Part shown: positions 23,563-62,896 of the stretch, in pieces
How the letters are laid out: each line of letters begins with the position of its first letter
Numbering within the stretch: the stretch's first letter is position 1
NCBI RefSeq assembly: GCF_000758525.1
Contig: NZ_CP009241.1
Span: 372,001-436,000, forward strand
Reading direction: 5' to 3'
Length of the DNA stretch: 64,000 nucleotides
Origin: Paenibacillus sp. FSL H7-0357
Lineage (GTDB): Bacteria; Bacillota; Bacilli; Paenibacillales; Paenibacillaceae
Program-made: the position numbers and the translations under genes
The notes under the pieces: model-generated
Seen by the model: the letters and a program-made list of their open reading frames with translations, nothing else
Databases searched by the model: none
What the model was told of the DNA's origin: nothing

Positions 23563-23590
23563 TTCTATTGGCTCATATAATAAAGTTAAG

Positions 23591-23661
23591 CTGTTCGTAT
23601 ATCCTCAAAGATAAGGTTTGGGGGTTTCTACAGGGGACCGTAAATTCCTGGCTACGAATAG
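23591..23661 (+). ncRNA. Purine (guanine-type) riboswitch aptamer, variant
   Basis: P1 pairs 23591-23599 with 23653-23661. P2 is CTCAAA/TTTGGG with the conserved loop GATAAGG. J2/3 contains GTTTCTAC. The P3 loop is CCGTAAA. J3/1 reads GCTA, so the specificity base is C, as in guanine riboswitches. Two departures from the consensus are visible: J1/2 lacks one A compared with the usual TAAT, and the base before the specificity C is G rather than A. The aptamer precedes the FAD-dependent oxidoreductase gene. Confidence 0.82.
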
Positions 23662-23699
23662 GGTGCATTTTGCATACCTATGAAGTATCCGGGATTTTT
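23647..23699 (+). terminator. Riboswitch expression platform: terminator overlapping P1
   Basis: A long interrupted hairpin pairs CCTGG, TAC, TAGG and TGCA on the 5' side with TGCA, CCTA, GTA and CCGGG on the 3' side, followed by ATTTTTG. Its 5' arm uses the 3' strands of P3 and P1. Aptamer folding and terminator folding are therefore mutually exclusive, predicting that ligand binding allows read-through. Confidence 0.6.
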
Positions 23700-37893: not shown

Positions 37894-37927
37894 ATCGACA
37901 CACTTTTCGTGTAAGATATTGTATAAT
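37894..37927 (+). promoter_or_regulatory. sinI promoter with Spo0A-like box
   Basis: TATAAT lies at 37922-37927 and the -35 region is poor. An inverted 6-of-7 0A box (ATCGACA, 37894-37900) sits against the -35 position, where Spo0A~P activates sigma-A promoters. In Bacillus subtilis sinI is a known Spo0A~P target, so the placement makes sense. The AT-rich stretch 37600-37890 before it shows nothing else I can name. Confidence 0.5.
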
Positions 37928-37983
37928 GTTATTGCGGATAACGGTTTCATGAATTTCTAACCAGATCCTTTCATGTAAAGGAT

Positions 37984-38067
37984 CCAGTAAAGGGTAAACC
38001 TGCCGAAAGACAGGGGCACAAAGTCTCGGGTCTAATGTAGAAATACTACGACGGCCGGACTGCCTGG
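37984..38067 (+). ncRNA. Class I cyclic-di-GMP riboswitch aptamer
   Basis: P1 pairs CCAG 37984-37987 with CTGG 38064-38067. GGGTAAACC leads into P2, closed by the conserved GAAA tetraloop. J2/3 has CAAAG. P3 contains GGGTCTAA, a perfect GTAG/CTAC stem, then GACGGCCGG and GACTGCC. The pair GTC/GAC replaces the usual GCC/GGT, a compensatory change supporting the fold. The tetraloop and its receptor elements are both present. The sinI ribosome site lies about 14 bases beyond P1. Confidence 0.88.
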
Positions 38068-38094
38068 GGACGCGTAATCTTAGGAGGAGATTTC

Positions 38095-38247
38095 TTGGAT
38101 AAGTCCAACCAGGGGAACAACGGAGAACTGCAGACAGTTGATCTGGATTTAGAATGGGTCTATTTGCTGATGTCGGCTAAGCAGGCGGGCATCAAAGCGG
38201 ATGAAATCCGCCAATTTTTTAATGAGAAGACTTTGCAGGCGATGTAG
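38095..38247 (+). CDS. sinI: Anti-repressor SinI
   Basis: 50 residues from TTG 38095, seven bases after TTAGGAGGAG. The core LDLEWVYLLMSAKQAGIKAD followed by EIRQFFNEK matches SinI of Bacillus, where this helix-turn-helix pair binds SinR, breaks its dimers and lifts repression of matrix operons. The leader carries a c-di-GMP aptamer, and sinR lies directly opposite, separated by a shared terminator. Short length and a TTG start make the gene easy to miss. Confidence 0.9.
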   Translation: MDKSNQGNNGELQTVDLDLEWVYLLMSAKQAGIKADEIRQFFNEKTLQAM

Positions 38248-38276
38248 CAGTTGGTTGTTAAAAGTTTTTGTACATA

Positions 38277-38316
38277 CAGAAAGGGCACAGCGGATCTCTC
38301 CGCTGTGCCCTTTCTG
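38277..38316. terminator. Bidirectional terminator between sinI and sinR
   Basis: A 17-base-pair perfect stem (core AAGGGCACAGCGG) with a 6-base loop and T-rich flanks on both sides. Confidence 0.92.
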
Positions 38317-38347
38317 TATGACCGGCAGTAGAAGGAACCTGCATGAA

Positions 38348-38692
38348 TCAGGAATCCTTCTGCTCCAACCGCCATTTTTGATAGTCCAAGAACTCTTTGA
38401 ATTCCCGCTTGCTTATACCCGAAGCCATAGCTTCCAGTACGAGCCGGGACCATTCTCCATCCAGAGGTGACTCCTGCACATCGGAAGGCTCGCCGTAAAG
38501 CAGCGCATGAATGGATACCTGAAGTGCGTCAGCGATTTTTTCAATAAATTGAATAGAGGGGTTAGATTGTATATTTCTTTCCACATTGCTTAAGTATGAT
38601 TTCGCCACATCAGCCTTATCCGCAAGCTCCGAAAGAGACAAGCCTTTTTCCAGACGGAGATGGTGGATGCGACTTCCCATATTATCTGGCAC
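38348..38692 (-). CDS. sinR: Biofilm master repressor SinR
   Basis: 114 residues. The XRE-type helix-turn-helix is at about 6-65 (GLSLSELADKADVAKSYLSN, then the RNIQSNPSIQFIEKIADAL helix), followed by the SinR dimer/SinI-binding domain (LDGEWSRLVLEAMASGISKR, then EFKEFLDYQKWR). Both halves are close to Bacillus subtilis SinR. GTG 38692 has GGAGGGG at suitable distance; ATG 38680 is in frame and would match the Bacillus N-terminus better. SinR probably represses the adjacent matrix operon through the GTTC sites at 38867-39033. Confidence 0.94.
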   Translation of the reverse strand: MPDNMGSRIHHLRLEKGLSLSELADKADVAKSYLSNVERNIQSNPSIQFIEKIADALQVSIHALLYGEPSDVQESPLDGEWSRLVLEAMASGISKREFKEFLDYQKWRLEQKDS

Positions 38693-38866: not shown

Positions 38867-39033
38867 GTTCGTTAAAAAGTACGATAAGCTGAGGAAAATG
38901 AAGCTAAAAGCAGAATTTTAACTATAAATCGTTCTTTATTAAGAATATTGCAACAAAATGAGATTTTTGATTTGTAGGAGTAATGGCATATACTTACGTC
39001 ATGGTTCTTAATAACGAACAAAAATCGTTCGTC
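38867..39033. promoter_or_regulatory. SinR-like operator cluster and matrix-operon promoter
   Basis: SinR half-sites (consensus GTTCTYT) occur as GTTCGTT 38867, GTTCTTT 38931, GTTCTTA 39004, AACGAAC 39013 (inverted) and GTTCGTC 39027. The last three form interlocking inverted repeats. A promoter with TTGATT 38967-38972, a 16-base spacer and TATACT 38989-38994 places the start of transcription at the edge of the densest cluster, a layout that fits repression. Exact half-site borders are inferred. Confidence 0.65.
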
Positions 39034-39101
39034 ATAAAGGCTGGGTGTTAATAGATTACCTTGTTTGCAGGAAATTGCAAGCAGCTAAAGGAGAGGCTCC
39101 T

Positions 39102-40172
39102 GTGAGGCTTTCACGTTCTTCCCGGAATAGAAACATCCGTCGGTATACGCTTCCCCAAATTGCAGGGATCGTAGTGATTTCGGCTTATGGCATCGGCCAA
39201 ATTACAACGCCCACGTATGCATTGCTGACTAACGTCGCAGCAACCGAATCATCCAATATCACCACAGCATTTGTGTTTCCAAGCACGGTCGATCACATTG
39301 CCAACCAAGCCAGCGAAGCGATGAAGCTTGCGGTCCAGCAGCGTGAAGCGGCGAGAGAGGTGCTAGCGGAGATAACGGATAAGAATACGGACTCGGAGAC
39401 CGCAGAGGGACGTATTGGAGGTATTCAAGAGGCTGCTGCACAAACGCGTGAGGCTGCGGCCGGCGCGGCTGCTTTTTTAGCTGAGCTTCAAGGCTATCTA
39501 ACACGCTCGCAATTAGAGCTGGAGCAGCAAGTCAATGAAGTGAACCAGAGACTTTCTCCATATGAGGTCGATTTTAATCAATTAACAGCCGCACAAAATA
39601 ACGATATCCCGGTATTCGAACAATTGCTCAGCCAAGCCAATCTAACGCTGGGCGAATTTCAGGAGATGGTTAGAAAGCTAAGCTCCATCAGAAGAGTGGA
39701 CGCTTATGTGCAGGCAGCCTATCATCAGGCATCGACCGCGGCCGAACAGGCTAGGAGTTATGCGGACGAAACCTCGTTGATGCATACAGAGGCCGCTGAC
39801 GTGATCCAAGGACTGAAAGAGGCTGAGAAGAAGGCGAAGCTCGAAGCGGAAGAAAAGGCGAAGCTCGAAGCCGAGGAGAAAGCGAAACTCGAGGCTGAGA
39901 AGAAGGCGAAGCTCGAAGCGGAAGAAAAGGCGAAGCTCGAAGCCGAGGAGAAAGCGAAACTCGAGGCTGAGAAGAAGGCGAAGCTCGAAGCTGAGGAGAA
40001 AGCGAAACTCGAGGCTGAGAAGAAGACGAAACTCGAAGCCGAGGAGAAAGCGAAGCTCGAAGCTGAGGAGCAAGCAAAGCCTGATAAGACTGCTGAGCCT
40101 GAAGCCCCTGCCCCGGACGCGAATCCTGACAGCATAACGGTAAAAATAGGCGAAAAGCAAGGCGTATTCTAA
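39102..40172 (+). CDS. Exported coiled-coil repeat protein at the tapA position of the matrix operon
   Basis: 356 residues from GTG 39102, five bases after AAAGGAGAGG; GTG 39045 is a longer alternative with a poor site. A basic N-terminus and hydrophobic segment (IAGIVVISAYGIGQI) act as an export signal. Helical regions follow, then ten 8-residue repeats (KAKLEAEE/K, about residues 244-323), then an acidic, proline-rich tail ending in KQGVF. There is no homology to TapA that I can see, but it occupies TapA's place before sipW and tasA, so a role in fibre anchoring or assembly is likely. Confidence 0.7.
   Translation: MRLSRSSRNRNIRRYTLPQIAGIVVISAYGIGQITTPTYALLTNVAATESSNITTAFVFPSTVDHIANQASEAMKLAVQQREAAREVLAEITDKNTDSETAEGRIGGIQEAAAQTREAAAGAAAFLAELQGYLTRSQLELEQQVNEVNQRLSPYEVDFNQLTAAQNNDIPVFEQLLSQANLTLGEFQEMVRKLSSIRRVDAYVQAAYHQASTAAEQARSYADETSLMHTEAADVIQGLKEAEKKAKLEAEEKAKLEAEEKAKLEAEKKAKLEAEEKAKLEAEEKAKLEAEKKAKLEAEEKAKLEAEKKTKLEAEEKAKLEAEEQAKPDKTAEPEAPAPDANPDSITVKIGEKQGVF
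39831..40070 (+). repeat. Tandem 24-base coding repeats, ten copies
   Basis: Ten in-frame copies encode KAKLEAEE or KAKLEAEK. Copies 1-3 (39831-39902) and 4-6 (39903-39974) are identical over 72 bases, a recent duplication. The array is likely to vary in length between strains. Confidence 0.95.
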
Positions 40173-40190: not shown

Positions 40191-40784
40191 GTGATACTTA
40201 AATGGACTCGTAACCTATTGATGTATGCGTTAATTCTCATTTTTCTACTTACGCTGGTATCTGCAATCACTAGCCGGATGAATGGCGGAACGCCCAAGAT
40301 TCTGGGCAAGGAAATTCTAACGGTGCTCTCCGGCTCCATGGAGCCCGGAATTCAGACGGGGGCTGTCATTGCCGTCAAACCGGTGAGTGAACAGAGTCAG
40401 GGATCTTTTAAACCAGGAGATGTAATCACTTACAAAGCTCTGGATGGATCAAACAGCCTGATTACCCACCGCATTGTCAGCGTGCTCGGCTCGGGAGAAA
40501 ACACCCAGTATATCACCAAAGGCGACAATAACGATGCGCAGGATGCAGATCCTATTCCTTCAAGTAATGTTGTTGCACAGTACGCGGACTTTACCGTTCC
40601 GTTTCTGGGATATTTCATGAACTGGGTAAAATCGACCGCCGGGATTATTGTCGTAATGGTTATTCCGGGGATTTTTCTGGTCATCTCTTCCCTTATTACA
40701 ATCTTCAAATCGATCATGCGCATGGAGGATCCTGTAGAGGTGCAGCTTGCGCCCGGAGAATCCCCGCCTGTTACGAACGGTTGA
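40191..40784 (+). CDS. sipW: Signal peptidase I, SipW type
   Basis: 197 residues from GTG 40191. An N-terminal membrane helix at about 9-27 is followed by the catalytic serine in SGSMEPG (Ser 49). A histidine (THRIVSV, His 93) stands where bacterial-type enzymes have lysine, the mark of the ER-type/SipW class. A second membrane helix lies at about 147-170. It cleaves the signal peptides of TasA-type proteins, encoded by the next two genes. It lies 18 bases after the coiled-coil gene, in the same operon. Confidence 0.92.
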   Translation: MILKWTRNLLMYALILIFLLTLVSAITSRMNGGTPKILGKEILTVLSGSMEPGIQTGAVIAVKPVSEQSQGSFKPGDVITYKALDGSNSLITHRIVSVLGSGENTQYITKGDNNDAQDADPIPSSNVVAQYADFTVPFLGYFMNWVKSTAGIIVVMVIPGIFLVISSLITIFKSIMRMEDPVEVQLAPGESPPVTNG

Positions 40785-40870: not shown

Positions 40871-41374
40871 ATGGCAAATCTCAAAAAAACGATGGCAATG
40901 GCAATGGCGACTACAGCACTGGGGGCAACATTAATTGCCGGGGGATCCTTCGCTATCTTTACGAGTTCCGCACAGAATACAGGCAATACGTTTGCTGCTG
41001 GCACGCTCAAGATTGAACTGGATAAGAAGGATGAAGCTCAGCAGAAATATTTCAACATCACAAATTGGGCTCCGGGAGATTCTGAGATCCAACCTGTAGT
41101 AGTTAGCAACAAAGGAACGCTTGAGCTGCGTTATGATCTCTCGCTGGCTGTAGGCGGCGACCTCGGCGGCGGAGCAACCCCGCTGGTCATTACCGCATAC
41201 TCTGATGCGGCTGGAACGGTACCGCTTACCGTTGCCGACCGTGTGCTTGCTGTGGGCGGATCGGAGACGATTTATGTCAAAGCTGAGTTCCCGAAAGCAG
41301 CTGACAACAGCTACCAAGGCAAGTCGGGTACAGCCTCCATTAAAGTAGATGCAGAGCAGACTAAAAATAACTAA
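40871..41374 (+). CDS. tasA: TasA/CalY-family matrix fibre protein
   Basis: 167 residues. The signal peptide has a GSFAIFTSSAQNTGNTFAAG junction typical of SipW substrates (camelysin/TasA family, peptidase M73-like). The mature part is a single beta-rich domain with the family pattern FNITNWAPGDSEIQPVVVSN and a SETIYVKAEFP strand near the end. Once processed by SipW it is expected to polymerise into extracellular biofilm fibres. AGGAGGAGAC precedes ATG 40871. At 167 residues it is shorter than TasA of Bacillus subtilis. Confidence 0.9.
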   Translation: MANLKKTMAMAMATTALGATLIAGGSFAIFTSSAQNTGNTFAAGTLKIELDKKDEAQQKYFNITNWAPGDSEIQPVVVSNKGTLELRYDLSLAVGGDLGGGATPLVITAYSDAAGTVPLTVADRVLAVGGSETIYVKAEFPKAADNSYQGKSGTASIKVDAEQTKNN

Positions 41375-41458: not shown

Positions 41459-42280
41459 ATGATGAAAAAGAAAAAAATGCTGATTGCCGCATTTTCCTCC
41501 GTGGTGCTGCTCTGCGCCGCCATTGGTGGAGGCACGTATGCCTTGTTCACCAGCTCCGCCCAAAACACCGGCAACACCTTTGCTTCCGGTACGTTGTCCT
41601 TAAGTACTCACCGCAATGACGTGCCGGTTGAAGGCCCGATGTTCTATACGGCTGACTCCGATGCCGGACGTATGGGAACAGGATTGTGGGCACCGAAAGA
41701 TACCCACACCCGAGCCATGCTGATCAAGAATACCGGGACGCTGGATGCCAAACTGACCGATCTGATTGCCATCCCGGAAGGAACACCTGCACAGCAGGCC
41801 GATGCGCTCGCATTCGGTGAGCAAGCGGTAGTCACTGTAGCCGCTTTGGCTGCACCAGGCGGCGTCACTCTTAATGCCGATGCGCTCAATGAGGTGAACG
41901 AAGCTGCAGACCGGCTGTTCAAATCGTTGATTAACGGTCCTTCCTTCCTGAAGGCACTGGCACGCAACGGACAGGAAGCCTTCGCGATTGCCAGAGAAGC
42001 CGTGCTCGACTGGACATACCGCGTAGACAATAACGGCCAGACTGTACTGGTCAGCGTTTCCGATGCTTATGTAGGTTCACTTAAGGATTTGTACAACAGC
42101 GGGGCAGGCCGGGATGCCAACCTCCCGAACCTGATTCTTCCTGCCAAGAAGACGATGCATCTGGCCTATAACGTGACTTTTGTTGATGATACGGGTCTCG
42201 GCTTTGATAATGACAGTCTGCAAGGCAAATCGGTTAACTTCACCTTCAAGAACAACTTTGAGCAGGTGAAGAATAATTAG
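41459..42280 (+). CDS. Second TasA-family fibre protein, larger paralogue
   Basis: 273 residues. It begins with a lysine-rich signal peptide whose cleavage region (YALFTSSAQNTGNTFASGTL) is nearly identical to that of the first TasA. The mature protein is longer, with an inserted, partly helical region at about residues 110-210 (rich in Ala, Asn, Glu), and ends like a TasA fold (LAYNVTFVDDTG ... VNFTFKNNFEQ). It is likely another SipW substrate, forming a minor or accessory fibre subunit. AAGGAG precedes ATG 41459. Confidence 0.88.
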   Translation: MMKKKKMLIAAFSSVVLLCAAIGGGTYALFTSSAQNTGNTFASGTLSLSTHRNDVPVEGPMFYTADSDAGRMGTGLWAPKDTHTRAMLIKNTGTLDAKLTDLIAIPEGTPAQQADALAFGEQAVVTVAALAAPGGVTLNADALNEVNEAADRLFKSLINGPSFLKALARNGQEAFAIAREAVLDWTYRVDNNGQTVLVSVSDAYVGSLKDLYNSGAGRDANLPNLILPAKKTMHLAYNVTFVDDTGLGFDNDSLQGKSVNFTFKNNFEQVKNN

Positions 42281-45902: not shown

Positions 45903-45965
45903 AAAAAAAAGAGCTACGGCCGGGGAACTCTGCAGCTATATAGCTGCATCTCCGGCGCTAAGCTC
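45903..45965 (-). terminator. Terminator overlapping the end of the GGDEF/HD-GYP gene
   Basis: Nested arms GAGCT/AGCTC, CCGG-type pairs and a GCAGCTA/TAGCTGC core are followed by eight T on the minus strand. The stop codon lies within the hairpin. Confidence 0.8.
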
Positions 45966-47774
45966 TCTGGCTTCAATATAGGTAATGAAAAATTCAGTCA
46001 GTTCAGGGTCGAATTGGCTTCCCGCACAAGCTCTCAGCTCAATGATCGCCTCCTCCACGGACTTGGTTGGCTGGTAGGGCCTTTCCGTAGTCATGGCGTC
46101 AAAGGAATCGATAATGGTCAGCATCCGGCATAAGCGGGGAATTTCCTCACCCTTAAACCCGTAGGGATATCCCTTGCCGTCATACCGTTCATGATGCAGC
46201 TCGATGTAGGGGGCGAGATCCTTGAATTTGTCGTTGGTGAGCGCCATTTTTTTGCCCCAGGTGACATGCCACTTGACCATTTCCCACTCCTCAGGCTCCA
46301 GCTTGTCTTTCTTGTTGAGGATGCCCCACGGAATTTCCAGCTTGCCGATATCATGGATCAGCGCGCCGAGTGTGAAGTGTCTTTTGGAAAGGGCGTCGAT
46401 GTCGAGCAGCTCACTGATATCCATCGCATAGCGGAATACGCGTTTGGAGTGGCGGAAGGTCTCCATATCCTTATACATAAACAGGTTCAGCTGCTGCTCG
46501 ATGTCGCGTACATCCTGGCTGAAGTCAAGCTCCTGCTCCAGTGAGGAGTATGCTCCATACGTATGCACTGTATTCTTGCCCTGGCGCTTGGAATAGTAGA
46601 GAGCCTGGTCGGCCTGGTCGACGAGCTGTGATTTATCGTGGATATCGCTGGTGCAGGAGGCAATGCCGGCGGAAAAGGCGAGGCAGCCAAGCGGGAAAAT
46701 TTCAACGCCGTCAAACCGGCTGTTGTTCAGCTTTTTGCGCAGCTGGTCGATGTAAACACGGGCTTGCAGGATATCGTAGGCCGGCATGAGCAGCGTAAAT
46801 TCCTCACCGCCATAGCGGGCGGCAATAATCCCATGCTGCTGGGCTTCGCTCTTAAGCGTCTCACCGACAAATGCGATCAGCTTGTCCCCCTGCAGATGGC
46901 CGAAATGGTCATTATATTTCTTGAAGTCGTCAAGGTCGATCATGGCGAGCGAAAGCGGAACGCCCGATGCCCTTGATTTCTGGATTTCCTGTTCCAAAGC
47001 TTCCTCAAAGTAGCTGTGATTGAATAGCCCGGTCCGCTGATCGGTGTTGGCCCGTTCCTCAATGCTGCGGTACATGGAGAACAATCTCTTGAAGGAGTAG
47101 CAGAGCAGCGTGCTCAGGCACAAGAATAGGACAAGCCCGAAAAAGCTGTTATGGACGATCAGTACAACGAGAACCAGAGAAAGAACCAATGTGCACAGAT
47201 AAACGACGAAAGAATCTTTTATAATATCCTTAATCGTCTCATAAAGTGTGCCTTTATATATAATGTAGTAATATAGTCCGATCAAGAGGGTGTTACCTAT
47301 AAAATAGACCGCAAGTGTCATCAGATAAGCCGGCAGTTCGTCATTGATCAGCGGTCCGGGATGTCCTCCAAACAAATCAAAGGTGTAGGAAGAAAGACAG
47401 ATCATAATGGAGTAAATCGAGAAATTCGTCAGGTGTTTCCACCAGCTGGTGCTTGTGTCAAAAAAGAAAAAGATCAGGCAGTTGAGAAGAAGAACAGTCA
47501 AAGTGGTAGAGCCGCCAAAGACAAAAATGCAGGCCAAATATACCGCTGATTCCATGGTCAGTTCGTTGCCCTCCGGAGGAAGCTGCACCAGGGAAAAGGT
47601 GAGTATTAAACTGGCTCCGGTAAGCGCATAAATCCATACCCACCTTGGGGTCGGATACTGCAGAAATTCCAAATGATTGCTATACGTGAAAAGCGCTACT
47701 CCCAGAAGGGATATGAGCAGTGCATAGACATGGCCTGAATTAATCTTGCCTGCAAACGTTTTAAGCTTGGTCAT
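45936..47774 (-). CDS. Membrane GGDEF and HD-GYP protein
   Basis: 612 residues. About six membrane segments fill residues 1-230. A GGDEF domain follows with the active motif GGEEF at 322-326, then an HD-GYP domain with HDIGK at 474-478 and HHERYDGKGYP near residue 510. Both c-di-GMP synthesis and degradation are possible in one protein; HD-GYP domains hydrolyse c-di-GMP to GMP. The first gene of the neighbouring group (DUF5317) and a 36-residue peptide lie directly upstream. Confidence 0.92.
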   Translation of the reverse strand: MTKLKTFAGKINSGHVYALLISLLGVALFTYSNHLEFLQYPTPRWVWIYALTGASLILTFSLVQLPPEGNELTMESAVYLACIFVFGGSTTLTVLLLNCLIFFFFDTSTSWWKHLTNFSIYSIMICLSSYTFDLFGGHPGPLINDELPAYLMTLAVYFIGNTLLIGLYYYIIYKGTLYETIKDIIKDSFVVYLCTLVLSLVLVVLIVHNSFFGLVLFLCLSTLLCYSFKRLFSMYRSIEERANTDQRTGLFNHSYFEEALEQEIQKSRASGVPLSLAMIDLDDFKKYNDHFGHLQGDKLIAFVGETLKSEAQQHGIIAARYGGEEFTLLMPAYDILQARVYIDQLRKKLNNSRFDGVEIFPLGCLAFSAGIASCTSDIHDKSQLVDQADQALYYSKRQGKNTVHTYGAYSSLEQELDFSQDVRDIEQQLNLFMYKDMETFRHSKRVFRYAMDISELLDIDALSKRHFTLGALIHDIGKLEIPWGILNKKDKLEPEEWEMVKWHVTWGKKMALTNDKFKDLAPYIELHHERYDGKGYPYGFKGEEIPRLCRMLTIIDSFDAMTTERPYQPTKSVEEAIIELRACAGSQFDPELTEFFITYIEARELSAGDAAI

Positions 47775-62675: not shown

Positions 62676-62728
62676 AGTTACTTGCGCAAGGTTGTGCTTG
62701 GGCCATAAACGGCCGTAAGCGATTGACG

Positions 62729-62817
62729 ATTCCTACGCTGGCATTATCCAGATCAGGTATAAGGGTCAGTATCTTGTGGGATACAATCTCAGCCGGCCAA
62801 TTCCAGCACCCCTGGTA
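62729..62817 (-). ncRNA. TPP riboswitch
   Basis: The minus strand carries the THI-box elements in order: AGGGGTGCTGG, GGCTGAGA, ACCCTTATACCTGATCTGG and ATAATGCCAGCGTAGGAA. These form the pyrimidine- and pyrophosphate-sensor helices. With a terminator at 62647-62675 it should shut down the downstream transporter operon when TPP is abundant. Confidence 0.96.
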
Positions 62818-62896
62818 CTATGAAGTTATAGGTATTGCTGTGTTCTTACGGTGTATTATAGACGCCCGCTCCATAGTTGTCCAGTAGCAACTCTGC

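Follow-up and report, generated by a model that had tools for sequence, protein, structure and literature searches.

A conserved class I c-di-GMP aptamer before sinI in Paenibacillus, most likely part of a translational ON switch

Genes at the sinI locus

The window (the whole 64,000-nucleotide stretch of Paenibacillus sp. FSL H7-0357 DNA analyzed here) holds a 50-amino-acid standalone ORF without an HTH at positions 38095 to 38247 (+), which starts with TTG and matches the SinI family PF08671 (34.7 bits against a cut-off of 31.4), in agreement with the 50-codon sinI proposed in the initial annotation. Residues 9 to 42 of its product align to B. subtilis SinI (5tmx, E = 1.6e-4; 1b0n_B, E = 1.8e-4), and the protein scores under the cut-off of the NCBI equivalog for B. 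subtilis-type SinI, NF046031 (32.3 versus 80 bits). Convergent with sinI lies a gene for a sinR-like repressor at 38348 to 38692 (−), in which both the HTH (PF01381) and the SinI-type domain (PF08671) are over cut-off and which matches B. subtilis SinR over almost its entire length (1b0n_A, E = 2.5e-38). A long, G+C-rich, terminator-like hairpin (38273 to 38320) separates the two genes, and inspection by eye finds a long hairpin of this kind after sinI in nine other intergenic stretches as well.

On the far side of sinR, five GTTC[TG]T motifs, which we take to be SinR-operator-like, are clustered at 38867 to 39032, ahead of the matrix genes, where the window has its highest density of this motif per 200 nt. 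The cluster is weak support, because a match in the stretch tested occurs in just 15 of the 30 loci compared, counting that of the window, at a mean of 1.1 versus 0.4 expected, and GTTCTYT, tried as a SinR operator, shows no enrichment over the whole window (17 found, 13.8 expected). The matrix genes comprise a sipW-type signal peptidase at 40191 to 40784 (+; NF046067, 196.4 bits, cut-off 190), a TasA/camelysin-like protein at 40871 to 41374 (+; PF12389, 69.2 bits, cut-off 22.5) that is below the TasA equivalog cut-off (33.1 versus 450), and a second camelysin-like protein with a SipW-dependent-type signal peptide at 41459 to 42280 (+; PF12389, 38.1 bits; TIGR04088, 27.2 bits, cut-off 19). Across 20 named loci, sucA, sinI, and sinR are kept together in all 20, with a sipW-like match in either orientation within the fetched flank in 18. 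Between sinR and sipW, a frame with many EAKLEAEEK-type repeats (39045 to 40172, +) has no Pfam match, and a tblastn match to it is found in 4 of the 20 named loci. A GGDEF plus HD-type (HD_5) protein that could act in c-di-GMP turnover is encoded at 45936 to 47774 (−), 3.7 kb past the second camelysin-like gene.

The genome, a single contig of 7.69 Mb, has one SinI and one SinR-like match above the Pfam cut-off, 27 GGDEF matches, and eight c-di-GMP-I aptamers, two of them adjoining. The adjoining pair, L010 and L012 (genome positions 694495 to 694732), precedes one secreted-looking protein. By eye, the genes after the seven aptamers other than the one before sinI have a signal-peptide-like start in five of six cases, the exception being that at L009. 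Scanning of the whole window with cmscan returns three riboswitches: the aptamer before sinI, a purine riboswitch at 23575 to 23674 (+; 70.2 bits), and a TPP riboswitch at 62713 to 62823 (−; 59.9 bits), the latter two also over cut-off.

The sinI leader and its conservation in Paenibacillus

The class I c-di-GMP riboswitch aptamer spans 37984 to 38068 (+) and scores 73.2 bits with the parent family RF01051, well over the gathering cut-off of 35. The covariance search that the initial annotation had proposed thus comes out above cut-off, and its observation of a c-di-GMP-I aptamer before sinI is confirmed, with the GAAA tetraloop, the GTAG/CTAC pairing, and the GTC/GAC pairs of P3 all present. 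The distance from the aptamer to the ribosome site AGGAGG (38082 to 38087), given there as about 14 nt, is 13 nt, and sinI starts 26 nt past the aptamer end. The aptamer is like RF01051 (GEMM-I) in fold, tetraloop, and pocket bases, and the three bases that contact c-di-GMP (G, A, and C, which we take to be G20, A47, and C92 in Vc2 numbering) are the same in all 55 distinct leaders. It differs from that family in two respects: one inter-helix pair, presumably that at the C22-G45 position, is U-A here and C-G in the seven other c-di-GMP-I aptamers of the genome, both sides having changed, and the alternative partner of P1 sits within coding sequence. Minimum free energy folding of 37926 to 38130 reveals no unusual stability (z = −0.73), and no intrinsic terminator that could serve as the platform of the leader was seen by eye between the aptamer and the ORF.

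Around the aptamer, the leader contains several further conserved parts. The heptamer TGTCGAT at 37894 to 37900 (−), in the −35 region, resembles the Spo0A box, whose consensus we take to be TGTCGAA, and the −10 hexamer TATAAT follows at 37922 to 37927 (+), as it does in relatives. The core of the box, CGACACA, is present at a fixed distance to the −10 in 61 of 64 sinI promoters, the window included (26 nt from start to start in 55 loci, 21 nt in 6), with 0.41 expected from mononucleotide shuffles; exact TGTCGAA is found in 9 of these 61. The putative Spo0A-like box noted earlier at the promoter therefore occurs above chance. A P0 hairpin (GATCCTTT/AAAGGATC; 37964 to 37984, +) lies 5′ of the aptamer and is paired in 98.9% of cells across the 55 distinct leaders, one of its pairs varying among U-G, U-A, and C-G and another showing a two-sided change. 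Past the aptamer, a small hairpin, AAUCU/AGAUU (38076 to 38092, +), holds the ribosome site in its loop (89.8% of cells paired, 55 distinct leaders).

A sinI of this type is found by protein search in 64 of 100 genomes of the genus, our own included, and a PF08671 match of any kind is found in the same 64; at least one c-di-GMP-I aptamer of whatever kind is found in 93 of the 100. Every one of the 64 genomes with sinI carries an above-cut-off aptamer upstream of it (window plus 60 plus 3 loci; Rfam), so the comparison of sinI leaders across the genus, which the initial annotation had named as a possible source of refutation, does not refute its reading. All 64 loci also have the aptamer core plus CCTGGGGA[CT] 30 to 34 nt before the start and GTCCAACCAGG from ORF base nine; sinI begins with TTG in 63 of them and with GTG in the other. 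We built a covariance model, R1, of the entire leader from 55 of the 64 sequences; its score is no lower than 151 bits at any of the 64 sinI genes, the next score among the matches listed for the 100 genus genomes being 56.2. The leader structure is paired in 97.2% of cells (55 distinct leaders), and two-sided changes occur in 6 pairs against 3.3 expected (5 of 500 shuffles reach 6; also above slid controls), a shuffle count that kinship of the sequences can inflate. sinR is convergent with sinI in 63 of the 64 loci, the window included. In two loci, L068 and L075, the P3 loop of the aptamer has about 45 extra bases.

The element CCUGGGGAC (38063 to 38071, +) contains the 3′ strand of P1 and has two alternative partners: it can close P1, or it can act as the 5′ arm of an anti-P1 stem whose 3′ arm, GUCC-AA-CCAGG (38103 to 38113, +), consists of sinI codons 3 to 7. 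This 3′ arm is present in 64 of 64 loci, and the anti-P1 pairing can form in all 55 distinct leaders, with a mean duplex energy of −14.5 kcal/mol; at each locus, no more than 4 of 200 shuffles reach the stability of the native duplex. The same test on six of the genome's seven other aptamers gave no comparable pairing, 50 to 193 of 200 shuffles being equally stable there. All 61 distinct ORFs share the codons TCC AAC CAG at positions 4 to 6, and none of the 56 Ser codons from codon 9 onward is TCC. Codon use does vary in every one of the 12 further degenerate columns in which 58 or more of the 61 residues agree, so that, read by hand, one-codon columns number 3 of 3 at codons 4 to 6 and 0 of 12 among these. 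Covariation within the anti-P1 stem is absent in the genus, where 8 of 9 pairs never vary, because the arms hardly vary there.

SinI leaders outside the genus

Among 17 more distant Paenibacillaceae SinI loci, the aptamer exceeds the cut-off in 12; inspected by eye, the other five comprise two with a truncated remnant (L107 and L118) and three with none (L116, L119, and L120). In L107 and L118 the 5′ half of the aptamer is gone, an apparent decay of the switch. Other Paenibacillaceae keep both anti-P1 arms, with the bulge changed from AA to GC (Asn to Ala); the pairing is kept through changes on both arms in L105 and L108 and in a shifted register in L109, and it is not clearly above shuffles in the three leaders with the lowest aptamer scores (L110, L111, and L114; 125, 99, and 36 of 200 shuffles as stable). 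Locus L119, which lacks the aptamer, retains the residues S-x-Q-V, so the conservation of the N terminus may be partly protein-level.

Searching with R1 adds four further leaders (L121 to L124), each with an above-cut-off aptamer before a SinI-like ORF. From a class-wide draw of 398 genomes, all nine R1 matches of at least 70.9 bits outside the Paenibacillaceae were fetched, six of which precede a SinI-like ORF, followed in four of the six by a SinR-like frame in the same direction; the three others (L128, L129, and L132) are not sinI. Within the order of one of the genomes with these matches, G443, 77 of 110 genomes match the G443 SinI at E = 0.01, SinR-type proteins included, and the 30 loci taken from this order comprise 26 standalone SinI and four SinR (three flagged by script, L146 by eye). 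The aptamer is over cut-off in 20 of the 26 standalone SinI loci, spread over 12 families and located 26 to 62 nt upstream of the matched stretch, a fraction that is not that of a random sample, because the 30 loci taken scored among the highest. The six standalone SinI loci with no above-cut-off aptamer upstream are L149, L150, L152, L153, L156, and L159; in L149 and L156, the opposite strand of the 3-kb locus carries a c-di-GMP-I aptamer at another place. Near the 20 aptamer-bearing loci, a SinR HTH is encoded in the same direction in 10, convergent in 8, and not found in 2.

In all 20 of these aptamer-bearing loci, the P1 strand region (mostly CCUGAAAUAC) can pair with the ribosome site itself (mostly GUAUUUUAGG); at most 6 of 200 shuffles are as stable in 19 loci, and L141 (96 of 200) is no better than shuffles. 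These pairings are what one would expect of a translational ON switch in the leaders of the G443 order, and it is there that the ON polarity is clearest, because the P1 strand can base-pair with the ribosome site directly.

Proposed switching and alternative explanations

B. subtilis sinI-sinR is under Spo0A~P control and forms an operon, whereas the two genes are convergent in the window. We know of no direct link of c-di-GMP to the SinI/SinR switch in that organism. SinI and SinR relatives and a Spo0A-like box are common to both systems, and the c-di-GMP-I aptamer is not, RF01051 being found in 0 of 14 control genomes, B. subtilis among them. In the core of its reading, a candidate c-di-GMP-I aptamer owned by sinI together with a Spo0A-like promoter box, the initial annotation is supported, because the aptamer is conserved in 64 of 64 genus loci and is present before sinI in other families, often with sinR following in the same direction; it had overlooked the anti-P1 partner, the convergent sinR with its hairpin, and the earlier appearance of the element in print.

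Taking the leader as a whole, we consider it probable that a c-di-GMP-I riboswitch here acts in sense on the translation of sinI, with ON as the most likely polarity. Transcription of sinI would start from the promoter with the conserved Spo0A-like motif, to which Spo0A would bind, and the aptamer, with its high score and intact pocket bases, would fold cotranscriptionally, bound c-di-GMP keeping P1 (CCAG/CUGG) closed. When c-di-GMP is absent, the 3′ strand of P1 would instead pair with GUCC-AA-CCAGG in codons 3 to 7, as conservation and energy suggest, and the resulting anti-P1 stem, which encloses the ribosome site and the start codon, would lower initiation. More SinI would then bind the SinR-like repressor made from the convergent gene and relieve the adjoining sipW/tasA-like genes, as in B. 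subtilis. Through these steps, c-di-GMP (at translation) and Spo0A (at transcription) would both act on SinI.

The opposite polarity, in which the ligand-bound P1 fold lowers sinI translation and c-di-GMP keeps SinR active, is unlikely, although nearest-neighbor energies in Paenibacillus do not set the P1 and anti-P1 states strongly apart in ribosome access and thus do not clearly favor ON. The unpaired probability of the ribosome site is 0.51 with either stem forced, GGAC/GUCC can remain paired with P1 formed, and the cost of opening −14 to +6 is 6.8 kcal/mol from anti-P1 and 7.5 from P1; opening to +13 costs 10.5 versus 10.9 kcal/mol and opening to +21 costs 13.4 versus 12.4 kcal/mol, anti-P1 being the dearer in 44 of 64 loci. 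In the unconstrained ensemble, which takes no account of ligand or order of synthesis, anti-P1 has a probability of 0.98 and P1 one of 0.0001. Against an OFF switch, no pairing that hides the ribosome site is seen to be gained when P1 forms, the mutually exclusive anti-P1 stem encloses both start and ribosome site, and in all 20 aptamer-bearing loci of the G443 order closing P1 would release the ribosome site. It is likewise improbable that the aptamer is real while the sinI codons are conserved for the protein N terminus and the expression platform lies elsewhere. The S-x-Q-V of the aptamer-less L119 would fit such an explanation; single-codon use confined to codons 4 to 6 among the conserved degenerate columns would not, nor would a pairing that survives amino acid changes (SNQG, SAQV) and weakens where the aptamer score is lowest. 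Sensing of another dinucleotide, by an aptamer of the c-di-GMP-I-GGC variant or of cGAMP type, is very improbable. Ranking by E value in Rfam does put c-di-GMP-I-GGC (RF03167) first for 37984 to 38068 (+), at 68.9 bits in cmscan and over its gathering cut-off of 59, and the U-A inter-helix pair could be read in the same way, but RF01051 gives more bits, the contact bases are invariant, and at the A47 position the window has A (CACAAAG) where the RF03167 consensus has G (CGCGAAG). That G is the mark of the GGC variant, and the orphan GGC ligand was dropped because the marker base is absent.

A different role for the aptamer has already been proposed in print. A 2023 survey describes an antisense-acting c-di-GMP-I riboswitch on the SinR-like gene paen-P40081_02330 of a Paenibacillus (PMC9943018), which, from its fitting arrangement, is probably the same element as the one described here; c-di-GMP would there control a transcript running into the convergent sinR and so lower SinR. 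The aptamer end does lie about 280 nt before the opposite-strand sinR stop codon, inside the 500-nt rule of that survey, and sinR is convergent in nearly all genus loci. In all 64 of them, however, a conserved sense gene for SinI with its own ribosome site intervenes, terminator-like hairpins follow sinI in the window and the nine other stretches inspected by eye, and both aptamer and sinI are present in L081, whose 457-nt flank contains no sinR. In half of the aptamer-bearing loci of the G443 order, moreover, antisense action on sinR is impossible, because sinR follows sinI in the same direction. On these grounds (intervening sinI, hairpin, same-direction sinR elsewhere) we rejected antisense control of sinR, which we regard as highly improbable, and the sense reading is better supported than that of PMC9943018. 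The survey was annotation based and the word sinI is absent from its text, so the 50-codon TTG ORF may have been missed.

The link between aptamer and sinI is therefore not wholly unreported: apart from the survey, where it figures as antisense (PMC9943018), a study of B. methanolicus MGA3 lists in Table 4 a putative c-di-GMP riboswitch, "(c-di-GMP)-sinI" (PMC4342826). A putative c-di-GMP riboswitch before sinI is thus common to that organism and ours, the published entry covering one organism and, in the part seen, giving neither a mechanism nor a cross-species comparison (PMC4342826). The main text of an RNA-seq study of P. riograndensis (PMC5670726) has neither c-di-GMP nor sinI, and our literature search, which covered main texts in an open-licence library, returned no description of the conservation or of a coding-region platform. 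The breadth of the aptamer-sinI pairing and the proposed role of sinI codons as the switching strand hence appear to be new.

Taken together, the RNA class is known and its link to sinI has been listed once, and the function is, on the comparative evidence, most likely that of a translational ON switch working with Spo0A. Going further, and with the balance of the argument even, control of SinI by c-di-GMP could be a common, perhaps ancestral, means of setting SinR activity in the Bacilli, with B. subtilis as the exception; in Paenibacillus the switch would have moved into the gene, so that the first sinI codons form half of the riboswitch and RNA folding, not protein function, fixes the SinI N terminus. 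The sinI leader would be a natural case of a riboswitch with coding sequence as its platform. If true, a c-di-GMP ON switch on sinI in several families would make a single RNA the meeting point of two classic biofilm circuits, would render the setting of SinR activity by c-di-GMP testable in other Bacilli, and would speak against the published antisense reading. SinI is thought to release the brake on biofilm building, and c-di-GMP could in this way switch biofilm building on.
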